Source: Candidatus Microgenomates bacterium (GTDB lineage: Bacteria; Patescibacteriota; Microgenomatia; UBA1406; HO2-37-13b). Taken from it: a stretch of DNA of 64,000 nucleotides. Below the pieces are notes generated by a model, which saw only the letters and a program-made list of their open reading frames with translations, had not been told where the DNA came from and did no database searches. Where the stretch lies: NCBI GenBank assembly GCA_025449735.1, contig JANWIV010000002.1, positions 62,001 to 126,000 on the forward strand, in the 5' to 3' direction. Every line of letters starts with the position of its first letter. The stretch's first letter is position 1. Below, one piece after another: positions 6,541 to 60,971 of the stretch. Both the position numbers and the translations under genes were made by a program.

Positions 6541-6865
6541 TGCGTTAGATTCCAACTTGCCTTTGAAGACGAAAGTGGCAACCTTTATAATAATTAAGAC
6601 TATCTTTCAATTCAGCATGCAGGGGAGAAGTTTTATTTCGGCATCGCTTGTCATCCCGTACTTGATACGGGATCCATGGATCCCCGCGTACCTGCCTCGC
6701 GGCAAGGCGGGCGCGAGGATGACAAAACAATTAGATCCTGAAACCCTCCGTCGTTAAAACTCTGGCGGGCAGGCAAGTTCAGGATGACGTAATCCGTCAG
6801 TTCAGGATGAAAGTTACTAGTATTTAATCCCTGTTTTTCCGTAGGCGGGGTAACTCAATCTTAAT
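6541..6865. other. Gene-free repeat-rich interval before the ATPase
   Basis: A 325-bp stretch with no credible gene. It holds the palindromic element at 6649-6724, then fragments of further units (TTCAGGATGA occurs at 6778-6787 and again at 6801-6810) and a GGCGGGCAGGC segment. These are parts of the TGTCATCC-type repeat family seen again near 55220 and 59738. No promoter was recognised for the downstream ATPase. Confidence 0.6.
6649..6724. repeat. TGTCATCC/GGATGACA palindromic element
   Basis: Outer inverted arms TGTCATCC (6649-6656) and GGATGACA (6717-6724) enclose a hairpin CCCGTA-CTTGA-TACGGG, the palindrome GGATCCATGGATCC, and a GC-rich inverted segment around CTCGCGGCAAGGCGGG. It is far richer in G+C than its surroundings. 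It belongs to the same family as the elements at 55220, 59738, 59941 and 60258. Confidence 0.85.
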
Positions 6866-54510: not shown

Positions 54511-55230
54511 ATGCTGATAATCAAAAATCTTTCTGTCAATATCGAGAGAAAGAAAATCCTAAACAATATCAACTTCACTTTTGAGCCGGGGCGGGTTTAT
54601 GTCTTGATGGGCCCAAATGGTTCGGGTAAGTCATCGCTCGCCAGTGTCATTATGGGGAACCCAATTTATAAAACTAGCGCTCGGTCAAAAGTCAAATTTA
54701 AAAATGAAGGTATCTTAGGTCTTAAAGCTGAGGAGAGAGCAAAACAGGGTATATTTATGTCATTTCAGAATCCAGTCTCTCTGACTGGCGTCTCAATCTA
54801 TCAACTGATGCGCTATGTCATGGGTGGGAAAATCGACCCGCTAGCAATTCGTCAACAATTGCAGAAGTATGCCAAAGAGTTATCAGTGAGTGAAGAGTTA
54901 CTGTCAAGATCATTAAATGATAATTTTTCTGGAGGAGAGCGGAAAAAAATGGAGATATTGCAGGCGGCAATACTTGATCCGTCGCTTTTGATATTTGACG
55001 AAATTGACACAGGAGTTGATGTCGATTCATTGAAAGCGATTGCCAAATTTATCAATAAGATGAGGGATAAGAAAAAAATCTTTATCATCATTACTCACTA
55101 CAATCGAATTTTAAAATATATCAAGCCCGATAAAGTACTTATCCTCGTCGGTGGAAAATTGGTTAAAGTGGGGGATTCAAGATTAGCTGAGAAGATTGAA
55201 AAATCTGGTTATGAGCATTTGTCATCCTGA
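54511..55230 (+). CDS. sufC: Fe-S assembly ATPase SufC
   Basis: ABC-type ATPase of the SUF scaffold complex (239 residues). Walker A GPNGSGKSS, signature FSGGERKKMEI, Walker B LLIFDEIDTGVD, all intact. The final codons (ending Ser-Ser-stop) lie in a dispersed palindrome whose left end TGTCATCCTGA supplies the TGA stop. TATAAT at 54495-54500 ends 10 nt before the ATG. First gene of the SUF group. Confidence 0.97.
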   Translation: MLIIKNLSVNIERKKILNNINFTFEPGRVYVLMGPNGSGKSSLASVIMGNPIYKTSARSKVKFKNEGILGLKAEERAKQGIFMSFQNPVSLTGVSIYQLMRYVMGGKIDPLAIRQQLQKYAKELSVSEELLSRSLNDNFSGGERKKMEILQAAILDPSLLIFDEIDTGVDVDSLKAIAKFINKMRDKKKIFIIITHYNRILKYIKPDKVLILVGGKLVKVGDSRLAEKIEKSGYEHLSS

Positions 55231-55305
55231 ATCCGCCTCGGTGGATGAAGGATCCCATTTACCAGTGAGATTCTTTTCCCACCGACCAGCGGGATCAGAA
55301 TGACA
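55220..55305. repeat. TGTCATCC palindromic element between sufC and sufB
   Basis: Arms TGTCATCCTGA (55220-55230) and TCAGAATGACA (55295-55305) pair over 11 bp with one mismatch. Inner GGATCC and CACCGACCAGCGGGATC segments are GC-rich. The left arm overlaps the sufC stop codon and the right arm ends 10 bp before the sufB ATG. The mRNA hairpin may alter sufC/sufB ratio. Confidence 0.85.
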
Positions 55306-59737: not shown

Positions 59738-59803
59738 TGTCATCCCCGACTCGATCGGGGATCCATGCAACTTATATGGATTCCCGCTTTCGCGAGAATG
59801 ACA
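59738..59803. repeat. TGTCATCC palindromic element
   Basis: TGTCATCCCCGA...GAGAATGACA with inner hairpin CCCCGA-CTCGA-TCGGGG, GGATCCATG and a CCCGCTTTCGCGAG segment. A solitary half unit CGCAATGACA follows near 59815-59824. Same family as 6649 and 55220. Confidence 0.85.
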
Positions 59804-59853: not shown

Positions 59854-59934
59854 ATGAGTTTGTCTGGTATGCCAGGAGGTAGCGACTCTACTTGCCACAA
59901 TTGCGGCTACAAAGACCCTTGTTGTTATGATTGA
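59854..59934 (+). CDS. Cys-rich mini-protein cassette, copy 1
   Basis: Short coding stretch MSLSGMPGGSDSTCHNCGYK then DPCCYD, stop TGA. In frame upstream RPCPQCEE adds a CxxC pair, but no better start is seen because a palindromic repeat lies immediately before; the true start may be a non-ATG codon or the gene may be truncated. A second copy at 60897-60971 differs at 7 of 75 bases, 5 of them synonymous, showing that the peptide is or was under selection. CxxC and CC pattern suggests metal binding or a redox role. Unknown family. Confidence 0.6.
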   Translation: MSLSGMPGGSDSTCHNCGYKDPCCYD

Positions 59935-59940
59935 TTGCTT

Positions 59941-59974
59941 TGTCATCCCGACCGAAGTGGAGGGATCTAATTAA
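59941..59974. repeat. Left half of a palindromic element, upstream of GIY-YIG gene
   Basis: Begins TGTCATCCCGACC and ends GGGATCTAATTAA. Its missing right half (TTAAGAGATTCC...CGGAATGACA) appears at 60258-60290, on the other side of the GIY-YIG gene. Confidence 0.8.
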
Positions 59975-59976
59975 AT

Positions 59977-60255
59977 GTGAAAGAATATTATGTTTATATC
60001 TTAAGAAACAAATCAGGAACTTTTTACACCGGTATGACGCATAACCTCACAATAAGAGTTCTGCAACATAAAAACAAAATGACTGATGGCTTTACCGCAA
60101 AATACAATATCAACATGCTTATTTATTTTGAGCAATTTAACGATGTTAATGAAGCAATAGCAAGGGAAAAGCAAATTAAAAATTGGAATAGAAAAAAGAA
60201 AGTTTTTCTCATTAAGCAAAAGAATCCAAGCTTTCAAGAAATTAAAATCGATTGA
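59977..60255 (+). CDS. GIY-YIG nuclease superfamily protein
   Basis: 92 residues of a standalone GIY-YIG domain: YYVYILRNKSGTFYTGMT (YVY...YTG form of the motif), catalytic Arg in LTIRVLQHK and Glu in AREKQIKNW. Starts at GTG, in the same AATGTGAAAGAA context as the P-type ATPase gene at 6866, which also follows a palindromic repeat. The gene is exactly bracketed by the two halves of a TGTCATCC palindrome, suggesting a link between nuclease and repeat. Confidence 0.85.
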   Translation: MKEYYVYILRNKSGTFYTGMTHNLTIRVLQHKNKMTDGFTAKYNINMLIYFEQFNDVNEAIAREKQIKNWNRKKKVFLIKQKNPSFQEIKID

Positions 60256-60257
60256 GA

Positions 60258-60310
60258 TTAAGAGATTCCTCGACTACGCTCGGAATGACAATGACCAGCT
60301 CGGAATGACA
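60258..60310. repeat. Right half of palindromic element, plus duplicated end
   Basis: TTAAGAGATTCCTCGAC...CGGAATGACA ends at 60290; CAGCTCGGAATGACA is repeated to 60310. Complements the left half at 59941-59974. Confidence 0.8.
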
Positions 60311-60330
60311 CGAGTCCTTTTTTGTTATGA

Positions 60331-60359
60331 TTGACGGATAAGGTCTCTTGGTATATACT
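60331..60359 (+). promoter_or_regulatory. Promoter of the gene at 60368
   Basis: TTGACG (60331-60336), 17-bp spacer, TATACT (60354-60359), ending 8 nt before the ATG: predicted leaderless transcript. Confidence 0.75.
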
Positions 60360-60367
60360 ATATTTTT

Positions 60368-60847
60368 ATGTCTATAGAAGCACCTTCATCTCGATTGAAT
60401 TCTTTGAAGAGCCGGGCCAAAGAAAAAAAAGCTGAAATAATTACCGCCGCTAGTATGGTAACAACCGTGGGTCTTTGCGCACATGCGGGCTTTGGTTTTA
60501 TTAACAATGTTAATGAGGTTGATCAATATTACGAAGATCATGGATATAGCATTGCGAGTGAGCAAATTGCAGAGTATGAGTCTCTTTCTGAAACCCTAGC
60601 TCTTGAGGGTAGGCTCGAAGAATTACCGCGCGAAATTGATATTCCAAAAGTTGAACAGTCATATCAAACTATTCAGACTTTAGAAGACACTGCCCCAAAA
60701 ATGCAACTGAAATATTATTATGAGCTCTTGGCCGCATTTGCTATTGCTGGAGTTGGTATTTTGAATTCAACTATTGATTCTGTGAATAAACTGAAAAAAT
60801 CATCAGCATCAAAGCAAGAAACACCTGAAACTCTTTCCACTTCATAA
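60368..60847 (+). CDS. Unknown protein with two membrane segments
   Basis: 159 residues, family not recognised. A basic N-terminal 25 residues, a first hydrophobic segment (about 24-47), a soluble acidic central loop rich in Glu/Tyr/Ser with coiled-coil-like spacing (about 50-110), and a second hydrophobic segment (about 115-137), then a Ser/Lys-rich tail. The consensus promoter just upstream supports real expression. Confidence 0.65.
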   Translation: MSIEAPSSRLNSLKSRAKEKKAEIITAASMVTTVGLCAHAGFGFINNVNEVDQYYEDHGYSIASEQIAEYESLSETLALEGRLEELPREIDIPKVEQSYQTIQTLEDTAPKMQLKYYYELLAAFAIAGVGILNSTIDSVNKLKKSSASKQETPETLSTS

Positions 60848-60896: not shown

Positions 60897-60971
60897 CTGT
60901 CTGGTATGCCAGGAGGAAGTGACTCCACTTGCCACAAATGTGGCTACAAAGACCCTTGTTGTTATTACTAA
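60897..60971 (+). pseudogene. Cys-rich mini-protein cassette, copy 2
   Basis: LSGMPGGSDSTCHKCGYKDP then CCYY, stop TAA. Homology to copy 1 continues upstream as QLELIAL versus QCEEMSL, so the CPxC pair is lost. The frame is open from about 60795 but no ATG precedes the conserved part other than the one inside it (60906). Either a very short peptide, a non-ATG start or a decaying copy. Confidence 0.5.

Follow-up and report, generated by a model that had tools for sequence, protein, structure and literature searches.

In REP/RAYT systems, RAYT genes are described as lying, in every case, between two REPs of inverted orientation and as correlated with REP abundance (PMC2817692), and TnpA-REP is described as acting on its own REPs in the form of folded single strands, with nicking near the tag (PMC8266576). 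The CGTC REPs (Di Nocera et al. 2013) are characterised by a CGTC or TGTC tag, a stem of 8-9 bp starting with AT pairs, a loop of 4-5, a CCA tail and an arrangement mostly as dimers; they were reported from Neisseria, Bradyrhizobium, Rickettsia and others, they are stated to be without associated transposase genes, and the term GIY is absent from the main text (PMC3733652).

Among the papers listed in a literature search, none was recognised as reporting REP-like repeats on both sides of a GIY-YIG gene. Outside the reach of that search lies a 2025 study by Chenal et al. in Nat Commun, which is said to describe Ssn proteins as GIY-YIG site-specific single-strand nucleases whose cognate repeats in Neisseria are the NTS, and which reportedly stresses cleavage and transformation. 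To that work, the present analysis would add that the gene-in-dimer unit is a discrete insert for which empty sites exist.

The locus considered here lies in a stretch of 64,000 nucleotides (the window, by which the whole stretch analysed is meant) from the 822-kb, four-contig genome of a Candidatus Microgenomates bacterium. The unit at 59941-60290 is probably a REP/RAYT-like mobile element built on a GIY-YIG nuclease, whose cleavage activity and movement we infer.

A small GIY-YIG nuclease gene between two inverted hairpins

The features of the window referred to below are as follows.

59977..60255, forward strand: GIY-YIG nuclease gene, GTG start, 92 aa, Ssn-like subfamily (..REKQIKxWNR..NP..), assigned from Pfam, the subfamily motif and the predicted fold
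59941..59969, forward strand: left hairpin (half-element), tag TGTC 59941-59944, stem 59945-59949 / 59962-59966, tail CTA
60262..60290, reverse strand: right hairpin (inverted half-element), tag TGTC 60290-60287, stem 60286-60282 / 60269-60265, tail CTC
60298..60310, reverse strand: extra truncated tip, a tandem repeat (20-nt spacing) of 60278-60290
59738..59803, no strand assigned: bare dimer made of hairpins of this class, lying between a ferredoxin gene and a mini zinc-ribbon ORF
55220..55305, no strand assigned: bare dimer, spacer 14 nt
6649..6674, forward strand: single hairpin

The 92-residue protein matched the Pfam GIY-YIG family (E 6.8e-14), and its predicted structure was a confident GIY-YIG fold (pLDDT 93.5). 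By sequence and fold, the nearest solved structures were the UPF0213 proteins BH0048 (1zg2) and EF2693 (1ywl), at 28-29% identity in the fold alignment, followed by Slx1; among these fold matches only 1zg2 scored below E 0.001. Across 48 sequences, Y7, Y17, G19 and E64 were invariant and R27 was at least 90% conserved, residues which we take to include the GIY and YIG tyrosines and the Arg and Glu of the active site. The window gene was the sole subfamily member seen in its own genome, where the other GIY-YIG matches comprised five small genes outside the subfamily and a match within a 432-aa open frame that is probably UvrC.

The protein may well be a member of the Ssn family of single-strand nucleases. 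This assignment fits the finding that a gonococcal homologue, presumably Ssn itself, is 41% identical, has the same C-terminal motif and lies among an array of ATTCCC(N8)GGGAAT repeats of the dRS3 type. A small GIY-YIG protein with cognate repeats is what the two systems would have in common. A close homologue (55%) was also seen with hairpin arrays on Planktothrix agardhii plasmid NZ_LR882964.1 (18247-19722; L306), at a locus with an MmeI-type restriction gene on one side and DISARM drmA on the other.

The original prediction had placed the gene inside one split palindromic element. Inverted repeats do flank it, the 29-nt arms at 59940-59968 and 60263-60291 being 83% complementary across the gene, but they are rather two separate hairpins in opposite orientation, each consisting of a TGTC tag, a stem starting with AT and a tail. 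Both are weak, with 5-bp stems and DNA fold z-scores of -1.2 and +0.2; the bare dimers fold better (z -3.1 for 59738-59803 and -3.7 for 55220-55305). Palindromes without the gene had been noted at 6649, 55220 and 59738 and were found at all three places, the first as a single hairpin and the other two as complete dimers.

A loose 10-mer taken alone was found 11 times in the window against 6.1 expected, which is not significant. The element is also accompanied by a 22-nt imperfect direct repeat (59913-59934 and 60313-60334), which was set aside as a single case. The end of the mini zinc-ribbon ORF (GMPGGSDSTCH.CGYKDPCCY) occurs twice in the window, at about 59860-59934 and 60903-60971, and the two ends bracket the GIY-YIG element and a gene at 60368.

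Tagged hairpins in the genome

Across the 822-kb genome, the pattern TGTCATYCY...RGRATC returned 45 half-hairpins, more than expected by chance, as against 0 for the reversed control pattern. Ten outward-tagged dimers were found, of which nine are bare, with spacers of 6-17 nt, and one holds the gene, which makes its spacer 296 nt long; the gene thus stands in for the short spacer. Exact TGTCATYCYSA sites, some of which may not be hairpins, numbered 28: the three at the gene read YCCGA, and the remaining 25 comprised 23 YCTGA, one YCCGA and one YCCCA. The hairpins at the window gene are therefore of a stem type unlike most bare ones of the same genome, and the bare copies in this genome are not simple copies of the window copy. 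A comparison of a gene's own hairpins with the bare ones of its genome, which covered two of 18 genomes, was set aside, stem types being mixed within genomes.

Also present in the genome is a single Y1-type transposase gene (C1:66556-66798). The list of 45 pattern-matching hairpins has none between C1:51985 and C1:79025, so this gene is not flanked by a hairpin of this pattern. The Y1-type transposase could act in trans on the hairpins, which would count against a process driven by the GIY-YIG nuclease.

The gene-between-hairpins layout in other genomes

Relatives of the gene were assembled, by protein sequence alone, as a class set of 128 subfamily loci in same-class genomes and a GTDB set of 80 loci from a species-genome scan (best 80 of 527 relatives), which covers Bacteroidota, Pseudomonadota, Thermodesulfobacteriota, Cloacimonadota, Omnitrophota, Chloroflexota, Spirochaetota, Planctomycetota and others. 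Four loci are common to both sets, so that the 208 loci represent 204 distinct ones. As controls, 29 other small GIY-YIG genes were used, three clipped loci (L049, L057 and L061) having been left out.

Outward GTCAT/ATGAC tags were present on both sides of the gene at 116 of 128 class loci and 58 of 80 GTDB loci (best 80 of 527 relatives), as against 0 of 29 for small GIY-YIG genes outside the subfamily, and one side or both had a stem-checked hairpin within 300 nt at 127/128 class loci, 76/80 GTDB loci (again the best 80 of 527) and 3/29 controls. The layout of a gene in a hairpin dimer is real and general. Neisseria and Bradyrhizobium deviate from this, their nearest tags being turned towards the gene and not outward. 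Matching the flanks strictly as a split inverted repeat performed poorly, with only 76/128 and 51/80 loci beating all 50 shuffles (controls 3/29), since stems often differ between the two hairpins of one dimer; the tag test was used instead.

Among 374 half-hairpins, the tag was TGTC in 277 and CGTC in 61 (together 338/374), GTCAT having been the search seed, so that only the base preceding GTC is informative. Stems of at least 5 bp were found in 331/374 halves and in 67/374 after shuffling, a count biased towards structure since the pairs were located by searching for pairing. The median stem was 8, the commonest loops were 4-5, and stem positions 3-8 held many different pairs. The commonest tail was CCA (112 of 331 halves), and the hairpins of the window gene end in CTA and CTC. 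This arrangement of a constant tag, first AT pairs and tail around a variable stem suggests that a folded single strand would be recognised and nicked near the tag.

Like the CGTC REPs (PMC3733652), the hairpins of the subfamily have a CGTC or TGTC tag and a stem that starts with AT, and many of them end in CCA; those at the window gene have the TGTC tag, 5-bp stems and the tails CTA and CTC. Unlike the CGTC REPs as published there, the present repeats have a gene between them and occur also in Patescibacteria and many other phyla. The nuclease is not a tyrosine transposase, so the statement of that paper that no transposase genes are associated is extended more than contradicted (PMC3733652).

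A protein tree of the window protein and 76 GTDB rows without stops (the 4 rows with stops having been dropped) mixed the phyla but was poorly resolved; horizontal spread of the gene among phyla is thus suggested rather than established.

Gene presence and hairpin number

Among 281 class genomes, most of them drafts, hairpins per genome had a median of 24.5 in 74 gene-positive and of 1 in 201 gene-negative genomes (p 8e-24), six genomes with borderline protein scores having been left out and kinship being handled solely by looking inside one order and one family. Within the order of the window genome, 15 positives had 9-205 hairpins and 17 negatives 0-39. Exceptions occurred in both directions: 11/74 gene-positive genomes had fewer than 5 hairpins and 14/201 negatives had at least 20.

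In class genomes, the presence of a GIY-YIG subfamily gene thus tracks the number of cognate repeats, a feature of REPtrons. The analogy to REP sequences and RAYT enzymes that had been drawn for this locus fits: as in REPtrons and with TnpA-REP, an enzyme gene lies between inverted tagged hairpins, many bare hairpins and dimers are present, gene and hairpin number are linked, and the substrate is presumed to be a single-strand hairpin (PMC2817692, PMC8266576). The enzymes and tags differ, the tag being TGTC/CGTC here and GTAG there, and the enzyme here being by Pfam and fold a GIY-YIG nuclease, where a REPtron has an HUH tyrosine transposase of the IS200/IS605 kind.

Insertion, decay and persistence of the unit

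Two pairs of paralogues delimit the unit. In genome G002, the likeness of L041 and L045 (93%), two copies at different places, starts at the left tag and stops just beyond the right one, the surroundings being different, and in G012 the likeness of L241 and L247 (91%) starts at the left tag and continues through repeated tips on the right. More than one gene copy, at different places, was found in 31/74 gene-positive genomes, and presence of the gene is patchy between congeners. The search for empty sites in relatives gave one clear case, a contiguous empty site in a congener, among 15 insertion sites fully tested: in G117 the unit lies between two genes that we take, from their encoded sequences, to be gatC and gatA, G206 and G165 read straight through, and G213 is without the element there. 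In relative G004, the mini zinc-ribbon ORF likewise stands beside the ferredoxin gene, but neither the bare dimer that precedes it in the window nor the gene-bearing unit that follows it is present. Target-site duplications were not consistently found, 6/173 flank pairs scoring at least 12, mostly in repeat arrays, so that the unit lacks this type of transposition signature.

These sites bear on homing, an unlikely account in which the GIY-YIG gene would be a parasite of pre-existing bare dimers, copied in by cutting and repair, while the palindromes spread otherwise. GIY-YIG is, as is generally known, a classic homing-nuclease fold, the gene sits exactly where bare dimers have their spacer of 6-17 nt, and a likeness of copies that ends at the hairpin ends would also be expected from gene conversion limited to shared homology; against this, relatives are without both hairpin and gene at gatC-gatA and beside the ferredoxin gene, homing does not require a strong link between gene and hairpin number, and no orthologous site was found at which one species has a bare dimer where another has the gene-bearing form.

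In-frame stops were present at 8/208 loci (80 of the 208 being the best 80 of 527 relatives). By eye, five further copies among eight loci examined (L307, L308, L309, L310 and L312) were truncated, stopped or frameshifted with both hairpins kept, the other three being without such a pattern. In L307 the GIY-YIG half is gone, the state expected for a non-autonomous derivative. The original prediction, in which the gene-bearing element is the autonomous form and the bare palindromes derive from it, is right in outline and partly supported: the general layout, the link to hairpin number, the behaviour as a discrete insert and the decayed copies that keep their hairpins speak for it, whereas the stem type of the window copy differs from that of most bare ones.

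The two recent paralogue pairs gave dN/dS values of 0.08 and 0.22 and are under purifying selection. In Flavobacteriaceae, L087, L090, L095 and L119 have one downstream neighbour in common and L073, L112 and L116 another, so the unit can remain in place for long; the fixed position of the gene in several species of this family looks like vertical inheritance. Selection and maintenance at the same site would be accounted for by a host-kept, Ssn-type single-strand nuclease that limits or shapes DNA uptake and recombination at target hairpins, the hairpins at the gene being regulatory, and Neisseria Ssn reportedly modulates transformation. Such a housekeeping or immunity role is, we consider, quite improbable as the explanation of the unit, given the several copies per genome at different places, the decayed copies and the patchiness between congeners.

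Truncated extra tips (tag and stem start) are repeated outside the element, mostly at a spacing of 17-26 nt, in the window (60298-60310), L045, L115, L164, L306 and others. A tag in the same orientation lay within 45 nt on 62/370 sides, 31 of these being at least 10/13 identical to the tip; the opposite tag occurred on 46 sides and a reversed control on 9. The repeated tips are a possible footprint of repeated nicking and extension. In L080, an identical truncated tip and an identical short spacer stand outside both hairpins as mirror images.

A model for movement of the unit

In the mobile-element reading that we favour, the unit consists of two CGTC/TGTC-tagged hairpins in inverted orientation, with a GIY-YIG nuclease gene in place of their short spacer. 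The nuclease would most likely recognise tag and hairpin when these are folded in single-stranded DNA, such as the lagging-strand template or DNA that is being taken up, and would nick at or beside the tag. The nick may lead to copying or movement of its own element and, in trans, of bare hairpin dimers, and decay of the gene would then leave bare or gutted dimers. A GIY-YIG enzyme, unlike an HUH transposase, has no covalent hold on the DNA end; joining would hence be left to host replication and repair, which fits the absence of target-site duplications.

That ordinary intergenic hairpins or terminators happen to flank a small gene, as the stability of some bare hairpins and their position between genes might suggest, is scarcely credible, since the gene lies between outward tags at 174/208 subfamily loci pooled (80 of them the best 80 of 527) against 0/29 controls, stem-checked hairpins are distributed as given above, a hairpin upstream of the gene would terminate before the gene start, and tags and tails are conserved across phyla.

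Recurrence of the gene and repeat unit across phyla suggests that the nuclease is the partner so far lacking for a large class of short bacterial repeats of unexplained origin, and its gene, lying between CGTC/TGTC-tagged repeats in many phyla, specifies a candidate enzyme that can be tested with short oligonucleotides. More broadly, we see about an even chance that the CGTC/TGTC-tagged REPs of bacteria at large belong to a single mobile superfamily whose driving enzymes are GIY-YIG nucleases and not tyrosine transposases, with hairpin-gene-hairpin units as the autonomous form, bare dimers as non-autonomous offspring, and movement via nicked single-stranded hairpins joined by host replication or repair. 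If so, intergenic repeats that number tens to hundreds per genome would, in many bacteria, gain an origin and a mechanism, the GIY-YIG nuclease would gain a role as a mobilising enzyme, and transposases and homing would be joined by another route through which a nuclease can propagate its own gene.

Other small GIY-YIG genes

A tRNA gene was present at 16/29 loci of other subfamilies (10/11 and 6/18) and at 2/33 subfamily loci examined, the locus lengths being different. By eye, the small GIY-YIG genes of other subfamilies at L004/L055, L005/L059, L044, L054, L056 and L060 lie between a 5' tRNA-gene part and a complete tRNA gene. The 5' part often holds an extra hairpin and in several cases belongs to the same tRNA as the complete gene, as would be seen if a homing insert had brought a substitute 5' half with it.
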